From the NCBI GenBank assembly GCA_030601675.1, contig JAUWBN010000012.1, positions 1 through 37,607 of the forward strand: a stretch of DNA of 37,607 bases, in the 5' to 3' direction. Below, one piece after another: positions 1 to 14,098 of this stretch (within the stretch, counting starts at the first letter, position 1; every line of letters starts with the position of its first letter). Under the pieces are notes generated by a model, which did not search any database, was not told the DNA's origin, and saw only the letters and a list, made by a program, of their open reading frames with translations. The stretch is from Hadesarchaea archaeon (lineage in GTDB: Archaea > Hadarchaeota > Hadarchaeia > Hadarchaeales > Hadarchaeaceae). Both the position numbers and the translations under genes were made by a program.

Positions 1-30
1 GCCAACAAGAACAGTCCAGAACCTGCCCAT

Positions 31-216
31 CTAAAAGCGCGGTGGACCTCTGCTCTCTGATCGGTGCTTCTGGAAGCAATCCCTGCAATAAACAGGTCTG
101 CCCTCGGTCGGCTTGAAGGGAACCTCGCACTCCTTGCCACAATCGGCGCATGTCGCCTTGTGCATCTCGCGAGGACCAACATCTCTCCGGCCGCCGAATC
201 CTCCGCCGTATGCCAT
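31..216 (-). CDS. small CxxC zinc-ribbon protein (host, left flank of the island)
   Basis: Two CxxC pairs (CADCGKEC, CRDC) in a 61-aa ORF; CxxC-x17-CxxC style archaeal zinc-ribbon protein. Confidence 0.7.
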   Translation of the reverse strand: MAYGGGFGGRRDVGPREMHKATCADCGKECEVPFKPTEGRPVYCRDCFQKHRSESRGPPRF

Positions 217-386
217 TTTTCTAACACTCCTTTTTTTTCAGACACGGTTTGAAAAACAGTTTAGCTGTTCTCCTCCCGAGATTTTCCACGAGAGATCTAA
301 CGTGTCCTTGCCGCATTGGGCTTGGATGCTTAAATAGGCCACGGTTTCCGTTTATTATGGGTAATACTGGCGAAAATCATGAAAAA

Positions 387-400
387 GTTAAAATTTAACC
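387..400. repeat. Near-palindromic target-like motif GTTAAAATTTAACC (third copy of the casposon flanking motif, one mismatch)
   Basis: Compare 1034-1046 and 10980-10992 (GTTAAATTTTAAC). Confidence 0.5.
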
Positions 401-433
401 TGCTTTTTAATGCCCATTTATCGCAAACAGGGG

Positions 434-588
434 AATTTATGTGCAAGCAGGGTAATTTATGTGCAGAAACGAATTTATGTGCAAAGCCCCTTCGAGCCAT
501 AACTTTTTAAACAGGCCGACTTTATGAGCAAAAACCCGACTTTTGCAACAGAGAGACGACTTTTGCAACAGAAGCGACTATTTCAACA
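434..588 (+). repeat. Array of about 7 degenerate short repeats with ~20-bp spacing (AATTTATGTGCA x3; GACTTTATGAGCA; GACTTTTGCAACA x2; GACTATTTCAACA)
   Basis: Units start near 434, 454, 472, then 518, 538, 558, 576. Confidence 0.6.
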
Positions 589-875
589 AAGCCCCGTGAA
601 CCAAAACCTTTATAAACGGAATCACAGCGCGGTGGGGATTAAAGCACCAAGTGCCCATTTTCCGATGAAGAGTGTCAGAGGCTTTCGCCAGCCTTGGCCT
701 CACGCTGGTGGATTAGCTTGGCTTGGCTGTGGCGCCGGAGCTTCTTCTTGCGGCGCTTTTTTCTATCCCTCCAGCTCGGCTTGTGCCAACGGTATCTGTG
801 TAGGCCTATCTATATCCCGTTCTCGACAATGCTCCACAGCCATATTAGTTAGTTGCGTCAAGCCCTAAGTTTTGA

Positions 876-1033
876 CCCAATTAAAGTGACCATTTTCCCC
901 GCTCAAAAATCAGGCGATTTAATCCGAGTTTGGCATGTTCCCAAGGTGGAAGGGGCTCGGATTGACAAACTCAATACCTGAGAATCCTTAGACGGCATAT
1001 TTTCAAGGTCAAAATGTGGAATATAGTAAAAAA
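876..1033 (+). repeat. Decayed right-end casposon TIR (solo or relict), abutting the left end of the intact casposon
   Basis: CCCAATTAAA (876) and TAATCCGAGTTTGGCATGTT (920-939, 20-bp exact match to 10864-10883) have the same 44-bp offset as in the right TIR, and the distance to the terminal GTTAAATTTTAAC is 114 versus 116 bp. Confidence 0.75.
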
Positions 1034-1046
1034 GTTAAATTTTAAC
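1028..1046. repeat. Left flanking direct repeat AAAAAAGTTAAATTTTAAC (contains the putative target-site duplication)
   Basis: Identical 19-mer at 10974-10992; exact TSD limits are ambiguous because of flanking A/T tracts. Confidence 0.7.
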
Positions 1047-1212
1047 TTTTTTTATCATATTCCCATTTCCAGCCCTGAGTAAACCCAATCTGAGCACGCT
1101 GGAATATCCTTTCAACCAATCCAAGCAATCTCCAAGCGTATAACATGCAAAACTCGGATTAGAGCGGTTATTTTTGGGCGGGGGAAACGGCAAAAATAAA
1201 GGGTCATGGACC
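1047..1212 (+). repeat. Left terminal inverted repeat of casposon
   Basis: Reverse complement matches 10801-10979; outer ~125 bp has one substitution (near 1149) plus a 1-nt T-tract difference; inner part degenerate, ending AGGGTCATGGACCT / AGGGTCATGAGCCT. Confidence 0.95.
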
Positions 1213-1338
1213 TTGTGTGGGGAAATTTTCCGAGTATAATCGAAATTGGTTGGGTCGTCCACCCCCCAATTCGCAGAAATTTTTCATGATAACAAAAATT
1301 AAATGGGGGTACAAAAATATCTAAAGGAGGTAACTTGA

Positions 1339-2217
1339 GTGTCAACAAATCGAGAAATTTGCTTTGTGATTATGCCATTTAGCCAAACGACGGTTGAACA
1401 TACTGAAAACTACTGGACGAAACATTTCGAAGATTTCTTAAAGCCCCTTATCGAGGTGAACCCGGACCTCGAAGCTCGTCGCTCACAGGCACTACGTGGG
1501 GATGTTTTAAAACAAATCATTACTGATCTTGCTGTTTCTCCCGTGGTAGTTGCAGATCTCACAGATAACAATCCCAATGTTTATTGGGAACTAGGGGTTC
1601 GCCAAAGCTTTAAGCATGGTACAGTTACGATAGCAGAAGTAGGCACGCGGCTTTTTTTCGATATTGGTGCCAAAGGTACTCTCTTCTATTATCCAAAGGA
1701 TCACTTAAAGATAGAGGATTTTCGTAAACGGTTCAAGGAAGCTATCCAAGATTGTTTGAAACATCCTGATAGACCTGATAGCCACGTTCTGGAGACTATT
1801 TCCGGTCGAGGAACCCTGTTCGAAATTTTTCGTCGAGACGAGGCAATCCGCCGACTAGACGCAGTGTTATCAGAATGCGATATAAACCTTAAAGTTCTGG
1901 AGTGGGCTGTTAAGTATGCCCAAGATAACCAGAAAAATCCTAGTAAACGGACATTTGCTACCGACCTTTTTAGAACATCAGCGTCTGAATTATTGATAAT
2001 AAATCGCTATGTCGATGAAGATCAATCATTCTACGAATTAATTGAAAGATACTTGATTAGGATTACTGCGATAAATAATCAGATAAACGTTTGGGAAGTT
2101 TCACCCGACTCTACGGAAAAGTGGTTATTAGGAGTGAAGACATCAACGGCAGAACTTCTCAAGGGATTCAAAGCCAGAGTGATGGTTGCTCGTGAGAAGA
2201 TAAGTAAGATACTTTGA
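1339..2217 (+). CDS. TIR-like / nucleoside 2-deoxyribosyltransferase-like Rossmann domain protein (candidate defence cargo)
   Basis: N-terminal CFVIMPFSQ, then VVVADLTDNNPNVYWELGVRQSF motif typical of this superfamily; preceded by AAGGAGGT. Confidence 0.65.
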   Translation: MSTNREICFVIMPFSQTTVEHTENYWTKHFEDFLKPLIEVNPDLEARRSQALRGDVLKQIITDLAVSPVVVADLTDNNPNVYWELGVRQSFKHGTVTIAEVGTRLFFDIGAKGTLFYYPKDHLKIEDFRKRFKEAIQDCLKHPDRPDSHVLETISGRGTLFEIFRRDEAIRRLDAVLSECDINLKVLEWAVKYAQDNQKNPSKRTFATDLFRTSASELLIINRYVDEDQSFYELIERYLIRITAINNQINVWEVSPDSTEKWLLGVKTSTAELLKGFKARVMVAREKISKIL

Positions 2218-2329
2218 TTGCCGAAAATGAGTTTTCGTTTACAGCATGACTATACCAAAAAAATGACGATTAATCGATTAAAAAGTCTGAATAAATCATG
2301 CCTTAAAGTGTAAAAATGTGTTATTGTAA

Positions 2330-2494
2330 GTGACAAAAAAGGATGGCGAAGTAGTGGCTCATAAATTACTAACATGCCCCCGTTGCAAATGGCGAGGAAG
2401 AATAAACACAGATACTTGCCCCAAGTGTGGACATCCATTAAGCTATTCGGTTAAAAGTGGTAAGAAAGGCAGGATCGCTGGCTTCAAAAGATAG
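2330..2494 (+). CDS. small zinc-ribbon protein (~47-54 aa)
   Basis: Not in the ORF track; GTG start at 2330 or 2354; translation contains CPRC...CPKCGHPLSYSVKSGKKGRIAGFKR*. Confidence 0.5.
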   Translation: MTKKDGEVVAHKLLTCPRCKWRGRINTDTCPKCGHPLSYSVKSGKKGRIAGFKR

Positions 2495-2570
2495 ATGAAT
2501 CCAAAAAGAGGAATAAAAATAAATTGCCGAAAATGACGATTAGTTAATTGAGATTGGCACTTTAATTGGG

Positions 2571-3683
2571 TCATGGGCCTTTTTTGCTTGATTCCCTCAG
2601 GATTCTTATCGTTTCCGGGTCCGGAGGTAGGATTCGTAACATCACGGTAGAAGCAGCCGCAATAGTTGCGAGGTATAAAAATAATAACGTAATTTGCAAC
2701 CTTTGCGTAGCAATAATTTGTTGTATTTGTTCTGAACTTTGAGGGAATAAAGCAAGTAATAACACAATCGCTGACACTATCACTGTTGTTAGTGGTGTGA
2801 TTATTTTTTTAAAATTAATTTTGGCGGGAGGCTTGAATTCTTTTAGGTACTGTAGTTCTGGCTTCTCAAAAAAATCTAAAAGTGTTGAGCCTATTTCATC
2901 AATTTTTCTTCTATCAATCGCAGATATTAATTTGTTAGTGAAGTCAAGCATTATTTCACGATCTAAAGAAGGGTCAATTTTTCTCATTTTATAATGAACT
3001 TGAAAAATATTTTCAAGATTAGAAATTTTGAGCTTTTTTCTTTTTCGGAGAGATTCATCCAATGCGAATAAAGAATTTTTAAACGGAACGATCCAGTCTG
3101 AATGATTTTTTTTAATATAATCACGCGAAATAACTAAGTAGAATCTTGCTTCATCCAACCCTTCTAGATATGTTTTTTCTTTAGACGCGTTTCGAAAAGA
3201 AGGCATTGATCCCGAATATCCCATGAAGGCTTTCACGTAAGCATAATGTAAGAACGCTGCAGCGGTTGCAACCCACAAAAGAGTAATAGAGAAGAATAGT
3301 GCTCTAAATCCCGCCAGGGGCGCCTGAGTTATGAGTAACAAAATAGCGATAGGCAGAATTAAAACCAAAAATATTACGGAAAACACAAAAAATATGTAAA
3401 AGATAGATCGGGAAATTTCTGTCGAGCACAAAACATGTGCTGATAAAGAAGTATCCTTTTTAATGTGTTTGATCATGCGGTCATAAAATTTTGGACTCAT
3501 GTGAGTAAGTAAAAATGGTACAACTATCGGGATCACACAAAATAATACCAAAAACGATACGGGAAAGAAGTAGTTTATGTCTTCCTTAAAAGCAAAAAAA
3601 ATAAAAAGTGCCCCCAAAAACACGGAGGGAATTATTGTCGATATAAATACTGTATTAATCTCCTTTTTGATTAAACTCTGCAT
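2571..3683 (-). CDS. multi-pass membrane protein of unknown function
   Basis: 370-aa ORF with several long hydrophobic segments at both ends and a charged central domain. Confidence 0.65.
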   Translation of the reverse strand: MQSLIKKEINTVFISTIIPSVFLGALFIFFAFKEDINYFFPVSFLVLFCVIPIVVPFLLTHMSPKFYDRMIKHIKKDTSLSAHVLCSTEISRSIFYIFFVFSVIFLVLILPIAILLLITQAPLAGFRALFFSITLLWVATAAAFLHYAYVKAFMGYSGSMPSFRNASKEKTYLEGLDEARFYLVISRDYIKKNHSDWIVPFKNSLFALDESLRKRKKLKISNLENIFQVHYKMRKIDPSLDREIMLDFTNKLISAIDRRKIDEIGSTLLDFFEKPELQYLKEFKPPAKINFKKIITPLTTVIVSAIVLLLALFPQSSEQIQQIIATQRLQITLLFLYLATIAAASTVMLRILPPDPETIRILRESSKKGP

Positions 3684-3708
3684 TTGCTCGCCGATCCCTC
3701 AATTCTTG

Positions 3709-4713
3709 TCATCTGAGCATTCCCCTTTTTACTGAGTATATAGAAGCTGGGAGATAGCTTTCTTTCTCCCCTCTCAAATACTGCGCCAACTTAATCGGCT
3801 CCTCTTTGATCGCCGTCCTTATGGTTGAATATTTGCCGAACTTTTTAATCCTCTGGTGTTCGATTCGCTTTTCGAAGAGTTCGTTGATCGCCTTTATCAT
3901 CTTGTAGCTCTCTTTCTGTTTCAAGAATATCCTTTCACCTTTCTTTTCAAAGTTGTTTTCGTTTAGTCTCTGGCTGTAGTTTACGAGAAATTCATCAATC
4001 ATGCCTCTAAAGATCTCTTGGATATCGCAAACTAAAGATGGCTTCGCAAATTGAATCGAGTGCAAGTAACCCAAGTATGGATCTAAGTGGGCATACATCA
4101 CGCCTCTGTAGACTTCTCCTTTCAAAACCTCATAGCCTAAATTCAGGAGGTTGTTTAGCGGGTCTTCAGCGTTATACTTCATCCGCTTAGGTGTTTGCAG
4201 AAAATCTGGGAATAAGGTCTTGACATGCCAGAAATAGACCTTTGAGCACCTCGATTCTATCCCCATCAGCCTAGGTCTTATGTTGTCTACCTTTTCTCCA
4301 TCGATTTTCGGGAGCTTTTCAACGATGTTCAATTTTCGGCCATCGAACCCATGCCTTTCAAGTAAAGCGGTTTGGTTGTTGATTTTTGCGCTCAGGATCG
4401 CCTTCGCTATTTCCACACCCTTCGAGTTGTAGTAAGCCTCATACTGCTTTATCCTAGTTTTAACGTTTGCGTGGGCCGACAAAGGCAACATCATGCTTAA
4501 CGGTCTACCCGTGTTTGAGGCCATCATGAGGTTGACGTTGTAGACCGAGCACCAAAACAAAGCGGATGTAGAGACGGTATTTCCCGGCGTTAGGATGACT
4601 TGTTTCACCTTGTAGAACGGGGTCTTCTTTACTGGCTTTTGGTCTTTGTAAACGATGAAGTTCTCTTTGTCGCTTCCCAAATATTGGCCGAACTCGTTAA
4701 GGATTATTTGCAT
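3709..4713 (-). CDS. cas1: Cas1 family integrase (casposase)
   Basis: Cas1 hallmarks: MGIESRCSKVYFW (catalytic Glu helix) and LDPYLGYLHSIQFAKPSLVCDIQEIFR (His and Asp/Glu of the active site). Confidence 0.93.
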   Translation of the reverse strand: MQIILNEFGQYLGSDKENFIVYKDQKPVKKTPFYKVKQVILTPGNTVSTSALFWCSVYNVNLMMASNTGRPLSMMLPLSAHANVKTRIKQYEAYYNSKGVEIAKAILSAKINNQTALLERHGFDGRKLNIVEKLPKIDGEKVDNIRPRLMGIESRCSKVYFWHVKTLFPDFLQTPKRMKYNAEDPLNNLLNLGYEVLKGEVYRGVMYAHLDPYLGYLHSIQFAKPSLVCDIQEIFRGMIDEFLVNYSQRLNENNFEKKGERIFLKQKESYKMIKAINELFEKRIEHQRIKKFGKYSTIRTAIKEEPIKLAQYLRGEKESYLPASIYSVKRGMLR

Positions 4714-5551
4714 TCTTCTCTACTCCTTTCATGTTCAAAATCCCAAATTGGGACTTGACCTTGATAGTGGGGAGAACTTTGATTTCGCCTCTTATGTTTT
4801 TCACGTCTCCATATTCGACGTTAAGTTTTGTTTCAATCCCTTTACCGTCTGGAACTGAATACACCATTATATCTGCAACAAATGGAAACAGGAAATATGC
4901 ACTCAGAGAGACGCTAGGTGAGGCTGGAATGTTCTCCTTTGGAAACAAGAAATTGTGTAGGCATGAGGGAGACAAACGGAGGATCTGGATTAGATTATCC
5001 TTATCAAGTCCCACTAGATGGCCGTAAAATTCTTTTTTTAATTCATCTGGATTAAATTCCTCGACGGACTTGTTTGGGTATTGCAAGTTAATAAAGCGAG
5101 CATATTCTTTCCACCATTCAGCGGCGAAGTGATCCACAAAATTTTCGTCTACAATGGATTGGAAATATTCAGATCTCATAAATTTGCATATATCATCTTC
5201 CTCAAATTCGTCATTCTTGGATTTGTAAAATTCTTTGACAAGATATTTGAAAGTCTCATAACTCTGATTCAGTTTCCATAAATTAGTGCGGCCTTTCTTT
5301 TCTTCTTTAATCAACACCCCCTTTTCCTCAAGTTCAGCCAAATGAATTTTAACTCCTTTAGGTTCTGAAACCCCATACTCTTCTCGCAAGGTATCACGTA
5401 GGTCAGGCTCCTTCATTCCTTTGGGGAACTGTTTAGCGATAATCAGAACTATCTTTTTTTTAATAAAACCCGGTTGAAACCCCTTTCCTCGCTCCCTTTT
5501 CTTTCTCAGAGGTTTGAATGCCATATTGACCCTCGCCAATATCCTCGTCAT
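4697..5551 (-). CDS. winged-HTH protein, cas1-adjacent
   Basis: 284-aa ORF with an N-terminal wHTH-like segment (KEPDLRDTLREEYGVSEPKGVKIHLAELEEKGVLIKEEKKGRTNLWKL); 17-nt overlap with cas1. Confidence 0.7.
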   Translation of the reverse strand: MTRILARVNMAFKPLRKKRERGKGFQPGFIKKKIVLIIAKQFPKGMKEPDLRDTLREEYGVSEPKGVKIHLAELEEKGVLIKEEKKGRTNLWKLNQSYETFKYLVKEFYKSKNDEFEEDDICKFMRSEYFQSIVDENFVDHFAAEWWKEYARFINLQYPNKSVEEFNPDELKKEFYGHLVGLDKDNLIQILRLSPSCLHNFLFPKENIPASPSVSLSAYFLFPFVADIMVYSVPDGKGIETKLNVEYGDVKNIRGEIKVLPTIKVKSQFGILNMKGVEKNANNP

Positions 5552-5585
5552 TATGTCTTATAAAGGCTATGGTCTAAGATACTAT

Positions 5586-5655
5586 GGTATTTAATCGAAG
5601 CTCAAATACCAGCCTTTTTCGGAAAAAGAGACCGTAGGGGGTCTTTTTAGTCAAA
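5586..5655. promoter_or_regulatory. Divergent intergenic region with dyads (GGTATTT-N11-AAATACC; CTTTTTCGGAAAAAG; GACC...GGTC hairpin with flanking A/T tracts)
   Basis: Lies between the wHTH-cas1 operon (-) and the AbrB-HTH-PolB operon (+). Confidence 0.5.
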
Positions 5656-5689
5656 ATCTATTTTCATTCTCCTTTTCCTAGTAAGACCG

Positions 5690-5884
5690 ATGTACATGTT
5701 CAACTTCGGAAAAAGGAAAATCGTCGGGATGCACTACACGAGGTATATTGCCCTCCCACACCTCTGGCTGAAAAACTGCGGCTTGGAGAAAGGTGACTTT
5801 GTTCAGGTGACTCTCGGCGGCGACGGGAGCTTGGTTCTCCGGCCCATTGTGCAGCGTCGCTCTAAAAGGAGGGGCAGCCGTTGA
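5690..5884 (+). CDS. AbrB/SpoVT-like swapped-hairpin DNA-binding protein
   Basis: KRKIVGMHYTRYIALPHLWLKNCGLEKGDFVQVTLGGDGSLVLRP pattern. Confidence 0.65.
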   Translation: MYMFNFGKRKIVGMHYTRYIALPHLWLKNCGLEKGDFVQVTLGGDGSLVLRPIVQRRSKRRGSR

Positions 5885-6513
5885 AAAAAGTAGACCTTGA
5901 GCGAGAGGCTCGACGGCTAGAGCGGGAGGCCCGACGGCTGAGGAAGAGAGCCAAACGTGAACTGAGGAAGTTCCTCGAACAACAGAAGACCACGAAAGCT
6001 CTGGCCAGATATTACCGGGTTTCGGAGTCAACCATTGAAAGAAGGATTGGACATTATGGTTTGACCGGGTTGAGGAAACGTGGCAGGAAACCCTTCGTTA
6101 AGAAGCCAAAGCCCCCAAAGCCCAAACGGGAGTGGATCTCAACTAAGAAATACATCGATGACTTGAACAATGTCTACAAATTTTTGAACATCCAGTATAT
6201 TCCATTTAAATTCATAAATCCAAAAACTTTGGTCTGCTCGAATACCAAGCGGAATCCAAAAGGAAAGTTCACAACAGTTGGAGTTTACTTCATCGTTGAG
6301 CAAAGCGATGTATATTTTATCAATTATACACGGGTGAGGTACTCAGACAAACCCGCTGACTTAGCTGAGATCCATGACTGGGCAAAAGAGAACATGAACG
6401 ACATCTTGAGCGTGCAATTTCAAAGAGCATCATTCAGCATCGAGCGGATAATTGCCCTGACTTTTCTCTTGCCAGAAAAGAAGCCGAAGGTCATCAAGGC
6501 AAAGGGGCGATGA
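5881..6513 (+). CDS. HTH-containing basic protein upstream of PolB
   Basis: TTG start overlapping the previous stop (TTGA); highly charged Arg-rich N-terminus; ARYYRVSESTIERRIGHYGL helix-turn-helix; ATGA overlap with polB. Confidence 0.65.
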   Translation: MKKVDLEREARRLEREARRLRKRAKRELRKFLEQQKTTKALARYYRVSESTIERRIGHYGLTGLRKRGRKPFVKKPKPPKPKREWISTKKYIDDLNNVYKFLNIQYIPFKFINPKTLVCSNTKRNPKGKFTTVGVYFIVEQSDVYFINYTRVRYSDKPADLAEIHDWAKENMNDILSVQFQRASFSIERIIALTFLLPEKKPKVIKAKGR

Positions 6514-8465
6514 TCGTGGACAAAGAAGTTAATCTACCGAAATATCTCTGGGAGGGCGTCAAACCGTTGAAAAATCATTTTCCGAAGAACGTCAACTTAG
6601 TCGTGTTCGACACAGAGACCGAAGACGGTATCCCATATCTCTTAATCTTCTATGACGGGATTAAGCCGACTTACATCAAGGTAACTCAAGAGACGGTTTT
6701 AGACGAATTCATGAGTTATTTATTTCAAAAATATCCAAAGCACAAGACCAACCTGTTGTTTGCTCATAACTTACAATTCGACCTAACGGCTGTTTTATGT
6801 GAAAAGGAAAACGAGCTGTTTCAATATCTTAATCCTCCAAAACTTGAACACCCGCTCGGCACATTCGAGAAAATCTATTCGCAAAAAGTCTGGTTTGCCC
6901 AGATAAAAATGAAGAAGGGTGCTTACATCAAAGTCATAGATACGGGTAGTTTCCTGAGGGGATCGCTTTATGAATTATCAAGAAGGCTGAATTTAGAACA
7001 CCATAAAAGATATGGGCCAAATTTTGTCCGAGAAGGGAAAAAGCCCCAAACTCGGAAGGATTGGCAAGGCCTTTACCTTTATTGCAGAGATGAAATTTTG
7101 GCTACCTATGATTTGGCTCAATACGTCTTAGACATGCACAGGCATTATGATACAGCGATCTCGATTTCTGCTTCTCAGTTTGCCTCTAAAGTTTTCAAGA
7201 AACACTTCCTGAAGACCAAAATCCCACAAGTCCCTTCTTGGGCTAGGTGGCTTGCCGAGCAAAGCATTCATGGAGGAAGAGCCAGCACCTTCGTTGATGG
7301 AATAGCAGTAATTCCAGATGTGAATTACTACGACTACCATTCATTTTATTCTTGGGCTATGGCTGATCTACCGCTTCTGACTGATGGCAAATGGCAAAAG
7401 GTTAACGACTTCGTGGATGAATTCGAAGGGTTTTATCAAATCGATGGCTACGTGCAAAAATGCAAATATCCAGTAATCCTGAAAAATGCTGGAAACTTCG
7501 AATATGCAAAAGATGAATATGTAAGACGTGCACCTGTTGTTTCTTATGAACTGAGAGAAGCCCTGAAGCATGACGAAATAGATTTGGCAAAAATCAAAGG
7601 ATATGTTTGGACTCCCTCCAAAAACGCTGAGAACCCCTTCAAAAACTATGTCGATGAATTTTACAAACTCAAACAGGGCACGCCAAAAGACGACCCACGC
7701 CATCAGATGTACAAGCTCCTTTTGAACTCCCTATACGGTAAGACGTACCAAACGGTTAGGCAGACCGACTACAAAGAAGAACCTGAATTAGCTTGGAATC
7801 CTGAGTTAGGGAAATGCGTTAGAAACAGAATCTTATACCGGGCGGGTGGGATCTATCTCCCTCACGTTGGTTCTTGGATAACCTCTCTATGTAGGGCAAA
7901 ATTACATGAAGACCTCCACCGTTACGAAGCGATAGACTGTGCAACGGATTCATTCAAAACAAATCGAAATGATATCCCCACAGGTTCAGGTTTAGGCGAA
8001 CTAAAGCACGAACATCAGGGTTTGCTTCTATTGATAAGACCGAAGCTCTACATCATGTTTTCCGAAGATATCCAAAAAGAAGTGATGGAGGGATTCGGTG
8101 GAGATCTGAGAGCGTGGTTGAGGAAAAATCTACCATCAATTGAAGAACATTTGAAAACAAATCCTCAAGATTTGTGGAAGTTCTTCCCAAAATACGCTTT
8201 GCACGGATTTTGGGGTTCTGTTATAGAATTGCTCAGGCTTTACCAAGACAAATCTAACGAATACCTTTCCAAGCACATGACAAAGATCAAGGAAGCAATT
8301 AGGCAGGGAAAGCGAGCGAGGGTCATGGAAGAACAAACTAGGAGGGTTAAGATCGACTGGGACGAAGAGAGGGGTTTATGCGGGTTGAAAATAAAGGACG
8401 CTTTCAAACAAACGGAATTGTGCACTAAAAATTGCTCTAATTGCCCTTATTTCCAAGAATTTTGA
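6510..8465 (+). CDS. polB: family B DNA polymerase, probably protein-primed type
   Basis: ExoI VVFDTETEDG, ExoII FAHNLQFDL, ExoIII YCRDEILATYDL, motif A YDYHSFYSWAM, motif B KLLLNSLYGKTY, motif C DCATDSF, then RPKLYIMF; 651 aa. Confidence 0.9.
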   Translation: MIVDKEVNLPKYLWEGVKPLKNHFPKNVNLVVFDTETEDGIPYLLIFYDGIKPTYIKVTQETVLDEFMSYLFQKYPKHKTNLLFAHNLQFDLTAVLCEKENELFQYLNPPKLEHPLGTFEKIYSQKVWFAQIKMKKGAYIKVIDTGSFLRGSLYELSRRLNLEHHKRYGPNFVREGKKPQTRKDWQGLYLYCRDEILATYDLAQYVLDMHRHYDTAISISASQFASKVFKKHFLKTKIPQVPSWARWLAEQSIHGGRASTFVDGIAVIPDVNYYDYHSFYSWAMADLPLLTDGKWQKVNDFVDEFEGFYQIDGYVQKCKYPVILKNAGNFEYAKDEYVRRAPVVSYELREALKHDEIDLAKIKGYVWTPSKNAENPFKNYVDEFYKLKQGTPKDDPRHQMYKLLLNSLYGKTYQTVRQTDYKEEPELAWNPELGKCVRNRILYRAGGIYLPHVGSWITSLCRAKLHEDLHRYEAIDCATDSFKTNRNDIPTGSGLGELKHEHQGLLLLIRPKLYIMFSEDIQKEVMEGFGGDLRAWLRKNLPSIEEHLKTNPQDLWKFFPKYALHGFWGSVIELLRLYQDKSNEYLSKHMTKIKEAIRQGKRARVMEEQTRRVKIDWDEERGLCGLKIKDAFKQTELCTKNCSNCPYFQEF

Positions 8466-8486
8466 GGAGGTGATAAAACGTCTACT

Positions 8487-8687
8487 GTGATCTCCGTTCG
8501 GGTTAGCGATAAATTATACAGGATACTTTGCCATGAAGCTCAGAAAAATGGGCTGAGCCTGAGCAGATACGTGAGGAGAAAGCTGGTTGAAAGTCTAGTG
8601 AGGGAATACAAGCAAGTCCACGTTGGGAAAGCAGTACCTAAGCCAGAAGCAGAAAGACTGATCATAATACCGGATGGAGAAGCATGA
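8487..8687 (+). CDS. ribbon-helix-helix (CopG/MetJ-type) regulator
   Basis: ISVRVSDKLYRILCHEAQKNGLSLSRYVRRKLVESL; GTG start; GAGGAGGTGAT upstream. Confidence 0.65.
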   Translation: MISVRVSDKLYRILCHEAQKNGLSLSRYVRRKLVESLVREYKQVHVGKAVPKPEAERLIIIPDGEA

Positions 8688-8689
8688 AA

Positions 8690-8960
8690 ACAAAATGTTT
8701 ACATCGATTTTGTATACGTTTACATGTGATTTATTTGCACACATTCTGGCATTTACCGGCATTTATCTACACTTTTCCTGCAATTTCCGGCAATTGCACA
8801 CGTTTACCCACACTTTCCCACAATTTAACGCCAAATAACGCATAATAACGCAATAAAACATGTATACCCGTCAAAAGGCATCTAAATGTATCTTTTGAGA
8901 TGTTTACACATCAAAATGCATGTAAACACACAAAGAAATTTACAAACGTTGGCACTTTAG
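8690..8960. other. Noncoding repeat- and dyad-rich region (candidate replication or control region)
   Basis: AACGC repeated at exact 10-bp spacing (8827, 8837, 8847); TGTTTACA (8901-8908)/TGTAAACA (8921-8928) dyad; TCAAAAG (8871-8877)/CTTTTGA (8892-8898) dyad; multiple GTTTACA and CGGCAATT/GGCATTTA-type repeats. Confidence 0.6.
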
Positions 8961-8979
8961 CTAACCTGTGGATAGAGCA

Positions 8980-9318
8980 CTAATCCTTTCCCCATTTCCA
9001 AGCCATCCAGCCAGTACCACCAATCGCGATGAACACGGCTCCGACTATAAAATATATACCGTAATCATGGGATTCTCTAGCCGTGTCTCTCATCTCTCTC
9101 GCCGTGTCTCGTGCCTCCTGTGCTTCATTTGGATCGCCCAAGCTGTAAAGAAGATCAGCCCAGTCATCGGCCATGTCAGCAAACCAATCACACGTTTCAG
9201 AAAGCATGATAAAATATCCTCCTAAACCAGAACAGATGCCTACCCCAATAGCCGTGATTAAAATAATTTCAAGCGCTTTTCTTAACTTCATTTTGGATAC
9301 CTTTTCTGTTTTTAGCAT
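8980..9318 (-). CDS. small membrane protein, two predicted TM segments
   Basis: 112 aa; hydrophobic helices near the N-terminus (ALEIILITAIGVGICSGLGGYFIML) and C-terminus (YGIYFIVGAVFIAIGGTGWMAWKW). Confidence 0.5.
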   Translation of the reverse strand: MLKTEKVSKMKLRKALEIILITAIGVGICSGLGGYFIMLSETCDWFADMADDWADLLYSLGDPNEAQEARDTAREMRDTARESHDYGIYFIVGAVFIAIGGTGWMAWKWGKD

Positions 9319-9327
9319 TGAGGAATA

Positions 9328-9705
9328 TTAATCATTGTATTTAGGATTTAGGATACTAATAGCAAAATGTTCCAGAAGTCGTGCCTCTTTCTCATTTTTA
9401 AATCCTAGCACCTTAAACTTACATTGGGTTTCTAGAAATTTTCTGACTTTCCCCTTAGTTTTGAAATTATCTAATAATTTTTTATGCAAGATATGGCTTC
9501 TTGGATCGGCGAACAACTCTCTTAATCTTATTTTTAAGGCTCTTTTCGTAAATCCAATATAAATTGTTTTTGAACCTCGACATATTACATATACACACAT
9601 ATTAATGGTCATTTTATTTCTTTCATCGAAATTTTTGCCCTCAGAATTTAGTAATCCCTCTAATTCTAACATTCTTCTTTTAATATTTTGAGATAAGATT
9701 TTCAT
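9328..9705 (-). CDS. GIY-YIG nuclease-like protein
   Basis: CVYVICRGSKTIYIGFTKRALKIRLREL ... EARLLEHFAISILNPKYN matches the GIY-YIG domain layout. Confidence 0.7.
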   Translation of the reverse strand: MKILSQNIKRRMLELEGLLNSEGKNFDERNKMTINMCVYVICRGSKTIYIGFTKRALKIRLRELFADPRSHILHKKLLDNFKTKGKVRKFLETQCKFKVLGFKNEKEARLLEHFAISILNPKYND

Positions 9706-9874
9706 TTCACCAACACTATAATTCCCTTAACTCCTATATTTTTTGTTAATTTCGCCAGTTTAGTCCCTATTTTAATCGATTTATTTGGAATTTTTCGATC
9801 AATTAATCGTCATTTTTCGGCAATTTAAATTGTATTTTTAATCCATTTTTTGCTTCGAGCCATAAGCCATCGAG

Positions 9875-10741
9875 TTGTGTCCAATTCGGTCTTGCGTCAA
9901 ATTAATAAAAGGAGTAAAGCAAGTAAAATGTGTCGTTATGGTATCTTGGAAAGCGAATTTTTATCTCGATAAGGGTAAAAATCCGCGGTATTTCCCTTCT
10001 GAAGATGGCAGCCTATCCATCACAACAATAAAAAATACTGGAGAAAACCGCATTCATATTTCACAAATAACAATTAAATTTGATTGGCAAGGGGACAAAT
10101 ATTGGTATAAGAATTGGACTGCTGAGCTAGATCCGGATGAATCGACGAACTTGCCACCTATTGGATTCACAGTTCCGATTGATGTTAGTCTCGGATCCCA
10201 TACTTACAAATTCGGTATTAAAGTAGAAGAATGGATCGGATCGAATTGGGTAGATAGCGGCATTCTTCAAGGTAAAAAAACTCATCATTTACTGATAGGG
10301 AGATATCCCAAGCGTGATTTTAGAGTTTTCATTAGTCATAGTAATCGCGCAGAAGACGAAAAATTTGTGAACATGATTCATGATTCACTTGAAAATTGCG
10401 GGTTTGATGCCTATGTAGCGGAAAGAGAAGTTGAGTCAGGGGGGCTCTGGCCTAAGTTAGAACGTGAGATCAGAAGATCGGATGCGCTTCTCGTGTTTTG
10501 GACTAGATTCGCTGTTATATCAAGGGATGTCCGAGAAGAGATCGGAATATCAGTGGGGGCGGGAATGAAGCCAGAGCAAATAGTGATAATCAAAGAGGGG
10601 GCTCTCCGTGGATCTCTAATAGGTAACGAATATGCTTCTTTTAATAGGGGGAATCCTAAACAAGGGATTTTAGATGCAATCAAAATGATAATTAAACAAG
10701 CAGAAAAGAAACCCCGACCACCGGCAGCTGCTTCTGAATAA
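9875..10741 (+). CDS. TIR-domain protein with N-terminal beta-sandwich (CARDB/Ig-like) domain; start possibly at 9938
   Basis: KRDFRVFISHSNRAEDEKFVNMIHDSLENCGFDAYVAERE...SDALLVFWTRFAVISRDVREEIGISVG matches TIR fold motifs. Confidence 0.75.
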   Translation: MCPIRSCVKLIKGVKQVKCVVMVSWKANFYLDKGKNPRYFPSEDGSLSITTIKNTGENRIHISQITIKFDWQGDKYWYKNWTAELDPDESTNLPPIGFTVPIDVSLGSHTYKFGIKVEEWIGSNWVDSGILQGKKTHHLLIGRYPKRDFRVFISHSNRAEDEKFVNMIHDSLENCGFDAYVAEREVESGGLWPKLEREIRRSDALLVFWTRFAVISRDVREEIGISVGAGMKPEQIVIIKEGALRGSLIGNEYASFNRGNPKQGILDAIKMIIKQAEKKPRPPAAASE

Positions 10742-10800
10742 GATTTATGAAAGAAATTGCTAAGGCCTAACACATTTTCTCAAGCATTGGAGCTTTGATA

Positions 10801-10979
10801 AGGCTCATGACCCTTTTGGCCCAATTAAAATGCCCATTTCCCACCCCGAAAAAATAACCGCTCTAATCCGAGTTTGGCATGTTATACGCTTGGAGATTGC
10901 TTGGATTGGTTGAAAGGATATTCCAGCGTGCTCAGATTGGGTTTACTCAGGGCTGGAAATGGGAATATGATAAAAAAAA
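10801..10979 (-). repeat. Right terminal inverted repeat of casposon
   Basis: Reverse complement of 1047-1212. Confidence 0.95.
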
Positions 10980-10992
10980 GTTAAATTTTAAC
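10974..10992. repeat. Right flanking direct repeat AAAAAAGTTAAATTTTAAC
   Basis: Identical to 1028-1046. Confidence 0.7.
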
Positions 10993-11032
10993 CTTTCTTT
11001 ACTCTTTCTTAGGTTTTTACAAAAGATTTGAA

Positions 11033-11938
11033 TTATTCAAATTTCTCGACCCACGCCAAGATTTTATCGATCTTAGCATTCATCTCGGCGATCGCGTTGG
11101 ATTTCGAAACGACCTTTGCCCAGATCGTTCGTTGAGACCCGTGGACGTAGGTTTCAGCTTGCCTGATGTTTGTCCAACCCATCTGGCTCATCAATCTAAA
11201 GGGGTCCTGCCATTCAGCGGCTAATTTTGTGGCCGCCGTGTGTCTGAGTGTGTAAAGGATCGCCTTTTCATTTGGAACCCCCGCCTTTTTGCATAGGGCT
11301 TTAAAATCTTTGAAGAGAGCCCACTGTTTTCGCCTGGCTTCTTTTTCATCATCGGGATTTGCATACGCATCGAGCCCAAAGTTTTTCACGTTTTCAATCA
11401 TCTCTTTGAGTCTATCGAAAAGCTCGATGTTTTGAAATTCACGGGTCTTTCTCCTGAATACTCTGATTACCCCCGCTTCCAGGTCGATGTTCTCCGGTTT
11501 GAGCGAGCAAAATTCCGCGGGCCTAAACCCGTGCAACAGGTACTCAATCGCCACCCCCAGGTCCCCCTCGGCCAATTGCTTTAACCTTTCGATTTCTCGG
11601 GGAGTGAAAGCTTCCCGATCAGCTTTTGGGGCCGTAATCGTCTCGACCATTTCAACCGGATTTTCCCCGATCAATCCCCGCTTCGAGCACCAGTTGAAAA
11701 ATACGTTGATTTGTTTCCGGCGGATGACTTTCGAGCGCTGGGACACAGGCAGATTCAAAAGCCACCGCTCTATTTTTTCAGGCGTAAAATCTTCGAGGTT
11801 TTTCAGATCAGGATATGCACGGAACAGCTGGCCCAGGGCGTCCCAGTAACCGCCCAGGGTGGAACCTACCGACCTACCTGCTTTTGACTTTACCTCCCTG
11901 AACCTTTCCCAGGCCTCTTTATAGTCCATTCGCACCAA
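11033..11938 (-). CDS. tyrosine recombinase / integrase
   Basis: LLHGFRPAEFCSL (Arg I), YTLRHTAATKLA (H-x-x-R box region), MGWTNIRQAETYVHG (nucleophile Tyr). Confidence 0.9.
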   Translation of the reverse strand: MVRMDYKEAWERFREVKSKAGRSVGSTLGGYWDALGQLFRAYPDLKNLEDFTPEKIERWLLNLPVSQRSKVIRRKQINVFFNWCSKRGLIGENPVEMVETITAPKADREAFTPREIERLKQLAEGDLGVAIEYLLHGFRPAEFCSLKPENIDLEAGVIRVFRRKTREFQNIELFDRLKEMIENVKNFGLDAYANPDDEKEARRKQWALFKDFKALCKKAGVPNEKAILYTLRHTAATKLAAEWQDPFRLMSQMGWTNIRQAETYVHGSQRTIWAKVVSKSNAIAEMNAKIDKILAWVEKFE

Positions 11939-11973
11939 GAAGGTTACCGAAAGTAATTTATAAGGGTGAATCG

Positions 11974-12810
11974 GTGCCGCGCCTACCAGCGATGTTCGAG
12001 CTCGTCAGGCCCCTGAACTGCTTGCTCGCGGGCTTGGCGGTGTTGATAGGGGCCGTAGTCGCGGGTGGTGGGGAACTACCTTACGCGGCTGGGGTGGCGC
12101 TTGTGGCGGCAGCCCTCATTAGCGGAGCGGGCAACGCGGTCAACGACTATTTTGATAGGGATATCGACGCCATCAACCGTCCCTACCGACCGATACCATC
12201 CGGCAGGCTGAGCGCGCGAACGGCCGTAATCCTTGCAGGTTGCCTGTTCGGGGCAGGTGTGGTTCTGGCAGCCCTCATAAGCCCACCATGCTTTGCGCTG
12301 GCCGCCTTGAACTCGGTGGTCCTTTTCACGTATTCCGCAGAGCTCAAGCGTCGCGGTCTGGCTGGCAACCTGACCATCGGTTACTTGGTCGGGTCGACGT
12401 TTTTGTTCGGCGGTCTGGCGGTAGGTGAAATTTCAGTGGTTGGCATCCTGGCGATCATGGCGGCGCTTTCGACGGTCGGGCGGGAGCTCATCAAGGGAAT
12501 CGAGGACATGCGGGGAGACAAAAAGCTCGGGTTCAGGACTTTCCCGCTACGCTACGGTGCGGGCAAGGCGGCCGCGTTGGCGATAGGCTTCATCGGGGCT
12601 GCCATAGCCATTTCTCCCCTGCCCTACGTGCTCGAGCTCTTCGGCTGGGCATACCTCGCCCTCGTGGTTCCCTCGATCGTTGCTTTCATCGCCGCGGCCG
12701 CAATCATCGTGCGGAGCCGGAAGCCCGAGGCCGCTGGGCGGGCATCGCTCGCGTGCAAAATGGCGATGGGGTTAGGGCTGCTTGCGTTCTTGGCAGGCGC
12801 GCTAGCCTAG
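11974..12810 (+). CDS. UbiA-family prenyltransferase (likely geranylgeranylglyceryl phosphate geranylgeranyltransferase)
   Basis: NAVNDYFDRDIDAINRPYRPIPSGRLS motif; multi-TM; GTG start at 11974 or ATG at 11992. Confidence 0.85.
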   Translation: MPRLPAMFELVRPLNCLLAGLAVLIGAVVAGGGELPYAAGVALVAAALISGAGNAVNDYFDRDIDAINRPYRPIPSGRLSARTAVILAGCLFGAGVVLAALISPPCFALAALNSVVLFTYSAELKRRGLAGNLTIGYLVGSTFLFGGLAVGEISVVGILAIMAALSTVGRELIKGIEDMRGDKKLGFRTFPLRYGAGKAAALAIGFIGAAIAISPLPYVLELFGWAYLALVVPSIVAFIAAAAIIVRSRKPEAAGRASLACKMAMGLGLLAFLAGALA

Positions 12811-12883
12811 CTGTGATGATTGGCTCGTCTGAAATAATGAGATGTCGAATATTCGTCCCGGGCACTAATCAGCGTGGCCGGAA

Positions 12884-14098
12884 TTATCTGACTTTCTTTC
12901 GAGCAATTTCTTCAACGCGCCCGATAACTTCGCGCAACCCCATGCCAGTTCGCTCGGCTATCTGCTTTGCGTCCTCGTACTCCGCGGCAAAACCGACAAG
13001 CTTCCCCCGCTCCCGCGCCACCTTCACGCGCGGCTTGAATTTGCGCCCGGCTAGCCTCAGGTCGACCCGCACGACCTCACGCTCGAGCGCGTAGCGGTGC
13101 ACCGAAGGCAGCACCCGAACCCCGAGCGTCCCGGTCTCCAGCATCAGCACGCGCGCGAGTCGTTCGGCATCCCCGGGTTTCGCGAGCACCTTGATCAAAA
13201 ATCCGGGCCTTCCCTTCTTCATAATAATCGGGGCAGCGCTCGCGTCCAGCGCGCCATCCGCAAGCAGTTTTTCGAGCGTGTAGCCGATGACCTCGCCCGA
13301 GACCTTGTCGACATTCGTCTCGAGCACCGCGATTTTCTGGAGCTTGAGCCCGCGCCCGCTCGCCTCGCCCAAGCACACACGCACCAGGTTCGGCGAGGGG
13401 AGTCGCCGTGCACCCGCGCCGTAGCCAACCGCGTCGATGTTCATCGCGGGGTAAGCGTCGACGAACTGATCGGCGAGCGTGGCGAGCAGGGCGGCCCCGG
13501 TGGGCGTGGTGAGCTCGGTCTTGGATGCAACCCCCCGAGTCGGCTTCCCCCTGAGAATCTCGAGGGTAGCGGGGGCGGGCAGGGGAAGCTTGCCGTGGAC
13601 AAAGGTGGTAGTTCCCTTTCCAACCGCCACCTCACTTGCCAACACCTTACGCTCGAAGAATCCGAGTTCGTTCGCGGCCGTGCAGCAGCCCACGACATCC
13701 GCAATCGCATCTGCGGCCCCGACCTCGTGCAACACGAGCCGCTCGAGGCGCTTGTCGTGCACGCGAGCTTCAGCGCGGGCGAGAGTTCTGAGCGTTTCGA
13801 ACACGGCGCCCCCAACCTTCGACGGCATGGGAAGCCGCCTGAGCCGCTTCACGATTTCCACATAGGTTCGCCCTCCCTCGTCCTTCGTCTCGACCTCGAT
13901 GCGTGTCGCCTTGATCTCGTTCACCCGAACCCGCTTGACCCCGACCTCGATATCGCCGAAGAGTTTACCCGCCCTTAGCATCGCCTTTTTAACTTTCCTT
14001 GGGGGAGCGCCCGCGTCGATGAGCGCAGCTGTTAGCATGTCGCCCGAGATGCCCGCGATGCTGCAGTCGATGAACGCTAGCTTCATGTCACTCCACAC
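12884..14098 (-). CDS. larC: LarC-type nickel insertion protein (DUF111)
   Basis: FIDCSIAGISGDMLTAALIDAG N-terminus, LHEVGAADAIADVVG, ELTTPTGAALLA. Confidence 0.88.
   Translation of the reverse strand: MWSDMKLAFIDCSIAGISGDMLTAALIDAGAPPRKVKKAMLRAGKLFGDIEVGVKRVRVNEIKATRIEVETKDEGGRTYVEIVKRLRRLPMPSKVGGAVFETLRTLARAEARVHDKRLERLVLHEVGAADAIADVVGCCTAANELGFFERKVLASEVAVGKGTTTFVHGKLPLPAPATLEILRGKPTRGVASKTELTTPTGAALLATLADQFVDAYPAMNIDAVGYGAGARRLPSPNLVRVCLGEASGRGLKLQKIAVLETNVDKVSGEVIGYTLEKLLADGALDASAAPIIMKKGRPGFLIKVLAKPGDAERLARVLMLETGTLGVRVLPSVHRYALEREVVRVDLRLAGRKFKPRVKVARERGKLVGFAAEYEDAKQIAERTGMGLREVIGRVEEIARKKVR

Follow-up and report, generated by a model that had tools for sequence, protein, structure and literature searches.

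Can a Cas1 protein that is encoded away from any CRISPR array be the enzyme that moves the DNA around it? The question is raised by a 37.6-kb contig of a metagenome-assembled genome (MAG) of the Hadarchaeota, in which a segment with a cas1 gene is bounded by long terminal inverted repeats (TIRs). The complete contig, C8 of the 937-kb MAG G000 (85.6% complete), was analyzed and is called the window here. A previous interpretation of the letters alone (the sequence-only reading) had proposed a casposon, a transposon driven by Cas1. Our analysis led to the same answer. With a probability of roughly 0.94, positions 1047-10979 represent an essentially intact casposon, a DNA transposon of 9.9 kb that has Cas1 (3709-4713) as its integrase. 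All parts on which this identification had been based are present: TIRs, an exact target-site duplication (TSD), a Cas1 without CRISPR partners, a family B DNA polymerase (PolB), and nuclease-like and helix-turn-helix (HTH) proteins. For comparison, 27 genomes of the host's order, G000 included, were used (28 for the phylum Hadarchaeota), of about 1 Mb each.

Boundaries and core proteins of the element

The features that define the element are the following:
1034-1046, plus strand: left 13-bp TSD GTTAAATTTTAAC, common to the right end of an adjoining casposon remnant
1047-1187, plus strand: left TIR, its outer approximately 129 bp near-identical to the right TIR
3709-4713, minus strand: casposase Cas1, 334 amino acids, without a C-terminal HTH extension of the family 2 type (Cas1 profiles; catalytic E153/H218/D230/E233)
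6510-8465, plus strand: family B DNA polymerase of apparent protein-primed type, 651 amino acids (PF03175; motif C ATDS)
10838-10979, minus strand: right TIR (repeat alignment)
10980-10992, plus strand: right 13-bp TSD GTTAAATTTTAAC (exact repeat)

The inverted-repeat arms (1037-1187 and 10838-10988, 151 nt) are 94% complementary. Direct alignment of the outer approximately 129 bp of the TIRs yielded one substitution (A/C) and one indel in a T tract, in agreement with what had been read from the letters, and the similarity is lost beyond GGTTATTTTT. The flanking direct repeat that had been described was also recovered. Its two 13-bp copies at 1034-1046 and 10980-10992 are exact, and therefore the TIRs begin at 1047 and end at 10979. 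In view of the TIR identity, the earlier suggestion of relatively recent movement appears reasonable. The GC content is 35–44% in the element and 52–64% in the window DNA from 12 kb onward. The element had been placed as AT-rich DNA between GC-rich housekeeping genes; the difference in composition was confirmed, but the direct neighbours turned out to be a second casposon-like end on the left and a tyrosine integrase gene on the right. No CRISPR-like array was found within the window, as had been stated, and no Rfam family matched in positions 1-13000.

A profile search with the 3709-4713 protein matched the Cas1 families PF01867 (E 7e-59) and TIGR00287 (E 2e-61). The profile spans residues 3-320 of the 334 amino acids, and no HTH or zinc domain is fused to it. 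The catalytic residues E153, H218, D230, and E233 were invariant in an alignment with the A. fulgidus Cas1 and the M. mazei casposase, which is 27% identical to the window protein over the aligned part. These results bear out the Cas1 gene and its catalytic context that the sequence-only reading had claimed. It is the only match to a Cas1 family in the whole MAG. The AlphaFold model of the protein had a mean predicted local distance difference test score (pLDDT) of 46.5, too poor for a fold search.

The Cas1 trees included CRISPR Cas1s of plasmids, of PDB entries, and of Hadarchaeota, with the M. mazei protein as the representative of the casposases. At four of the hadarchaeal loci, cas2- or cas4-like open reading frames (ORFs) and array-like repeats were observed beside cas1. 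The window protein and its counterpart in a second genome, G023, were placed on an isolated long branch that falls within none of the CRISPR clades sampled. This placement is consistent with membership of the casposase clade, short of proof. Clustering within a CRISPR clade together with a linked array, the outcome that would have spoken for an adaptation protein, was not observed, as no array is linked and the protein lies outside the sampled clades, but the tree is weakly resolved.

The claimed family B polymerase was likewise recovered: the 6510-8465 protein matched PF03175 (E 1e-18) and the PHROG DNA polymerase (E 2e-27). Its best annotated match in the phage collection was the protein-primed PolB of the archaeal virus LCBv1 (OM716002), with 26% identity over two thirds of its length, and the window polymerase is probably of the protein-primed type as well. 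The residues of motifs A and B and the first exonuclease motifs are conserved.

A second intact copy and the 13-bp repeat in related genomes

A second intact casposon was found at an unrelated site in G023 (JAPDJF010000054, Hadesarchaea), which belongs to another family of the same order. Both copies have a common core of an HTH-PolB pair, an HTH protein, Cas1, and a similar small membrane-like protein. The Cas1 proteins are 81% and the polymerases 80% identical, whereas the RadA proteins of the two hosts are 72% identical, which argues that the element has moved horizontally within the Hadarchaeota. The dN values were 0.115 for Cas1 and 0.140 for PolB, with dS near or beyond saturation and a dN/dS of about 0.05 for Cas1; both proteins appear to be under strong purifying selection. 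The G023 TIRs have 210 nt and termini that can be aligned with those of the window, and they are 99% complementary, so that the G023 copy looks younger than the window copy. It is flanked by GTTAAGGTTTATA twice, a 13-bp duplication that differs from GTTAAATTTTAAC. Duplications of equal length and different sequence are what target-site duplication predicts, unlike the attachment sites of one integrase.

A scan of the named genomes for close relatives of the window Cas1 yielded the G023 copy alone. No casposon was found when viral contigs were scanned for Cas1 or PolB; one of the scans returned four Cas1s, and the three loci that were read adjoin large ORFs resembling type II effector genes. 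The plasmid and phage collections yielded annotated CRISPR Cas1s, unannotated Cas1s, or distant polymerases. Most relatives carry casposon fragments only. Short pieces of the C-terminal half of Cas1 are scattered in G000 (C12:475-579, C24:5588-5677, C15:27305-27388) and over about 20 places in its relatives, and three of them stand in a row with a spacing of about 650 bp on G005:C11. A separate gene was considered as their source and rejected, because the pieces are short, several contain stop codons, and some lie near TIR pieces. Decayed casposons are the likelier explanation.

The DNA around the window copy contains three features that are shared with other loci:
387-399, minus strand: third copy of the 13-mer, in opposite orientation, at the junction with a host zinc-finger gene locus
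870-1033, plus strand: what remains of the right end of a second casposon-like element, which has diverged and abuts the left TSD (870-939 is 80% identical to 10814-10883)
11033-11938, minus strand: tyrosine recombinase of the XerA/phage integrase family, just outside the casposon (profile search)

In the remnant (870-1046) the inner TIR is 80% identical and the outer architecture matches, and its right end shares the left TSD with the window casposon. The arrangement appears to be a tandem insertion of the kind seen in families 1 and 2. A tandem repeat of approximately 20 bp (GCAAGCAGGGGAATTTATGT) lies at 416-490, and its copies recur in many places in the genomes of Hadarchaeota, G023 among them.

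Related genomes were searched for an empty site. In the sister genome G011, contig C16 (locus L102) has retained the right boundary, i.e. the integrase gene and the 13-mer, with 94% identity to the window, and other DNA replaces the casposon. The integrase itself is 95% identical to the window protein, and a Druantia-type defence system (2595-6840; DruA, E 6e-175; a DruB-like protein; a DruD-like protein, E 4e-10) lies directly beside the 13-mer. Judged from these sequences, one integrase-flanked site is occupied by a casposon in G000 and by Druantia in G011. Polymorphism in presence and absence, which had been named as decisive, is therefore not lacking, as the casposon is absent from this boundary in G011 and a full copy occupies an unrelated site in G023. 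The joined flanks of the G023 insertion, used as a query, did not reveal an empty site in the relatives.

The 27 genomes contain 27 copies of the 13-mer (GTTAAAWTTTAAC), spread over 12 of them, compared with two occurrences of the reversed control. The 13-mer is near-palindromic and begins with GTTAA. About 17 of the 27 copies abut sequences that resemble the casposon TIR terminus (flanks read by eye). In six genomes, the 13-mer is found 3' of ndk, with different elements beyond it; in G000 and G013, ndk lacks such a site. The G009 sequence of the zinc-finger locus remains collinear with that of the window as far as position 381, beyond which the 13-mer is missing. At the 13-mer locus of G000:C35, collinearity with the sister genomes extends to one side only. 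Taken together, the loci compared indicate that 13-mer sites often fall at synteny breaks. G000:C35 and G011:C52 were considered as a clean pair of empty and filled sites, but this was weakened by G013, G006, and G009, which are collinear on one side only. No partner TIR was found for 13 other ends adjacent to a 13-mer, and thus these elements are incomplete or cut by contig ends; degenerate relatives of the casposon are often located at contig ends.

Other kinds of DNA also adjoin the 13-mer. At L097, L100, and L106, a different sequence class with CCCCAAACCCAAACC abuts it directly, without a casposon-type TIR. A second end type (GGGGGAAACGTCAAAAAA) abuts it at L101, L104, L108, and L114, and perhaps represents a sister casposon family. 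At L103 (5747-6807), two direct copies of the 13-mer enclose a gene that resembles DUF116 (assigned by eye); one side carries a casposon-like end, and similar DNA is found elsewhere in G008 and G009, as if it had moved.

In one reading of this spread that still stands, the casposase is unusually strict in its choice of a palindromic target, and copies later recombined with each other. According to another, which we regard as speculative and rather unlikely, the host did not possess GTTAAATTTTAAC as a target beforehand, and the casposon itself carries the sequence and seeds it at new loci. The seeded sites would then be lasting docking points for further casposons, for other cargo such as Druantia or host genes, and for chromosome rearrangements, a behaviour like that of CRISPR repeats outside CRISPR. 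This would fit what was observed in M. mazei, where a casposon on the move seemed to swap the resident target sequence for its own (PMC10359463). The different TSD of G023 speaks against the 13-mer as a generally fixed part of the element.

Proposed mechanism and alternative explanations

Against the background of casposase biochemistry (PMC6977970, PMC6614799), the following course of events can be proposed. The element would be excised or copied, leaving free TIR 3' ends, and Cas1, which we infer to perform the integration, would join these ends to the two target strands with an offset of 13 bp. Fill-in would then create the 13-bp duplication, as in spacer insertion by CRISPR Cas1 at the repeat. 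The self-encoded polymerase of protein-primed type would copy the element, and the HTH proteins might regulate it or assist in targeting. As the target is near-palindromic, insertion of a new copy would be possible to the left or right of a resident one, which would result in tandem arrays. The decayed neighbour at 870-1046 may be a record of such an insertion. Both integration and self-synthesis are deduced from homologues.

Several points weigh against the casposon interpretation. The window is a contig of a MAG, and a clean empty site that unites both flanks of the window copy was not found in related genomes. In the best tree of the cleaned sequence set, the support that joined the window and G023 proteins to the M. 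mazei casposase was weak (73/53), and approximately unbiased (AU) tests did not reject a placement with CRISPR Cas1 clades (p 0.095 for the archaeal CRISPR Cas1s and 0.40). In addition, motif C of PolB (near residue 478) reads ATDS in both hadarchaeal copies, in place of DTDS in LCBv1, i.e. the first aspartate is gone, which may have altered or inactivated the polymerase.

The AU tests are one reason to ask whether the protein is a CRISPR adaptation Cas1 that was secondarily captured by a transposon. The element would still work like a casposon, with an integrase from outside the casposase lineage. In the searches, CRISPR Cas1s (A. fulgidus, Herpetosiphon) scored at least as high as the M. mazei casposase, and the window protein lacks the HTH extension. 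However, family 1 casposases are likewise compact and without HTH (PMC4046053), and in the best tree the window protein, on its long branch, groups with the M. mazei casposase and apart from every CRISPR clade sampled. We therefore consider a capture improbable. Even less credit is given to the idea that the direct repeats served the tyrosine integrase (11033-11938) as attachment sites and that this enzyme, in place of Cas1, moved the casposon-like segment as a cassette. It would account for the short distance (some 40 bp) between integrase gene and 13-mer in G000 as well as G011, where the site is followed by different cargo, for a near-palindromic 13-mer that is identical at many loci, and for segments without casposon-type TIRs that also abut the 13-mer (CCCCAAACCC-type ends). 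Yet the integrase gene lies outside the repeats and not within a segment bounded by attachment sites, and among the 13-mer loci compared it was seen only at G011:C16. Tyrosine recombination needs no TIRs, and in G023, the TIRs end at the equivalent position next to a 13-bp duplication of another sequence, with no homologue of the integrase in the stretch read.

A casposon that was mobile in the past and is no longer so is easier to imagine, although we still deem it unlikely. The ATDS motif, the slight differences between the window TIR arms, and the mere fragments in most relatives would all fit a loss of mobility. In contrast, the core ORFs are intact, purifying selection has been strong ever since the window and G023 copies diverged, and ATDS is also found in the G023 copy, whose TIRs are 99% complementary. 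The occurrence of ATDS in both copies and the purifying selection argue for a fixed variant of the lineage rather than a fresh knockout. An essentially intact casposon that uses its own Cas1 thus remains the preferred explanation.

Cargo, relation to known casposons and significance

The remaining features of the casposon are the following:
1339-2217, plus strand: cargo, 292-amino-acid protein with a segment similar to TIR effectors (PADLOC TIR 'Effector', E 2e-7; PHROG 3634, E 2e-20)
2217-2551, plus strand: inner repeat copies (ATTGCCGAAAATGACGATTA type), left bound of the core module, inverted relative to 9770-9827
2571-3683, minus strand: 370-amino-acid protein, membrane-like by eye, no family matched
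4697-5551, minus strand: 284-amino-acid winged-HTH-like protein overlapping cas1 (weak HTH match; positional counterpart in G023, 30% identity)
5690-5884, plus strand: small DNA-binding protein of the MazE/AbrB type (weak match)
5881-6513, plus strand: HTH protein directly upstream of polB (weak HTH match; 64% identical homologue upstream of G023 polB)
8487-8687, plus strand: small ribbon-helix-helix-like protein (weak PHROG repressor match)
8980-9318, minus strand: small membrane-like protein (homologue in the G023 casposon, 39–44%)
9328-9705, minus strand: GIY-YIG nuclease-like protein (E 2e-4, slightly short of the Pfam cut-off)
9770-9827, minus strand: inner repeat, right of the core module (repeat alignment)
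9875-10741, plus strand: cargo, 288-amino-acid protein with a C-terminal TIR domain and an N-terminal part without family (PF13676, E 1e-10; ThsB-like, E 2e-5)

The HTH proteins of the sequence-only reading correspond to the weak matches at 4697-5551 and 5881-6513, and its nuclease-like ORF to the GIY-YIG-like gene. The two genes with similarity to TIR domains (here the protein domain) are those closest to the terminal repeats, one at each end, and are plausibly passengers that serve immunity; their domains point to a role in defence. Elsewhere in the order (26 genomes), no relative of the first was found, and the second had no full-length relative and a single weak partial match. The AlphaFold model of the first protein (mean pLDDT 45.2) was too poor for a fold search. 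Both genes lie outside the pair of inner repeats (2217-2551 and 9770-9827), and thus core and cargo look modular. The motif AATTGCCGAAAATGACGATTAAT at 2217-2285, 2523-2551, and 9770-9827 flanks the casposon core, recurs near other element ends (L044, L100, L106, L108, L113), and is a possible binding site. A copy of inner TIR sequence (TTAATTGGGTCATGGGCC) is present inside the element at 2552-2577, and the gene 1339-2217 lies between two such copies, which may reflect recombination between tandem casposons.

Family 1 casposons, known from Thaumarchaeota, are defined by the protein-primed type of their PolB and by their compact Cas1 (PMC4046053, PMC6563490, PMC9939771). Compared by descriptions, the window element resembles those of Nitrosopumilus and other Thaumarchaeota (PMC4046053, PMC6563490) in the polymerase type, the Cas1 without HTH extension, the presence of small genes upstream of polB (in the window, one for a small HTH protein and one resembling AbrB), the insertion after protein-coding genes, and tandem insertions at one site, which have been described for families 1 and 2 (PMC6563490). 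The published range of casposon TIR lengths is 25–602 nt (PMC4046053). The window element differs from family 1 in its hadarchaeal host, its cargo of a GIY-YIG-like nuclease and two TIR-domain-like effectors, motif C of PolB, and a 13-bp near-palindromic target that is unchanged at many loci. With family 2 (Methanosarcina, Aciduliprofundum; structure 6OPM), it shares the Cas1 transposase, TIRs and TSDs, the preference for 3' ends of genes, and tandem copies. In contrast, family 2 encodes another kind of PolB, an HNH nuclease, and a Cas1 that ends in a C-terminal HTH, and its TSD has 14–15 bp, of which mainly the first nucleotides are conserved (PMC4046053, PMC6614799, PMC6977970). A search of the window for the family 2 hallmarks yielded neither a C-terminal Cas1 extension nor an HNH match, with a GIY-YIG-like protein instead.

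The CRISPR-Cas adaptation module (Cas1-Cas2) has a homologous integrase and also duplicates a repeat upon insertion, but the window lacks an array, and the inserted DNA is a 10-kb element with TIRs. The virus LCBv1 has a homologous polymerase and, unlike the window, no annotated Cas1. No casposon from Hadesarchaea or Hadarchaeota was found in the literature searched, with most subscription journals and all supplements outside the search. The results support a new variety, as suspected previously from cargo and gene order, and the window element can be described as a family-1-like casposon with a hadarchaeal host, a PolB of apparent protein-primed type, and its own gene set and cargo; it is set beside family 1 by descriptions only.

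Casposons are the proposed ancestors of CRISPR adaptation. For those with a protein-primed-type polymerase, the literature searched names only Thaumarchaeota, and the window copy comes from a different archaeal phylum. Its target resembles many CRISPR repeats in being nearly palindromic. Two intact copies with approximately 80% identical core proteins and different duplications, together with many relics in sister genomes, form a natural series for the target choice of casposases. Moreover, because the same integrase-flanked site holds Druantia in the sister genome, our results suggest that casposon sites can double as hotspots for defence genes.

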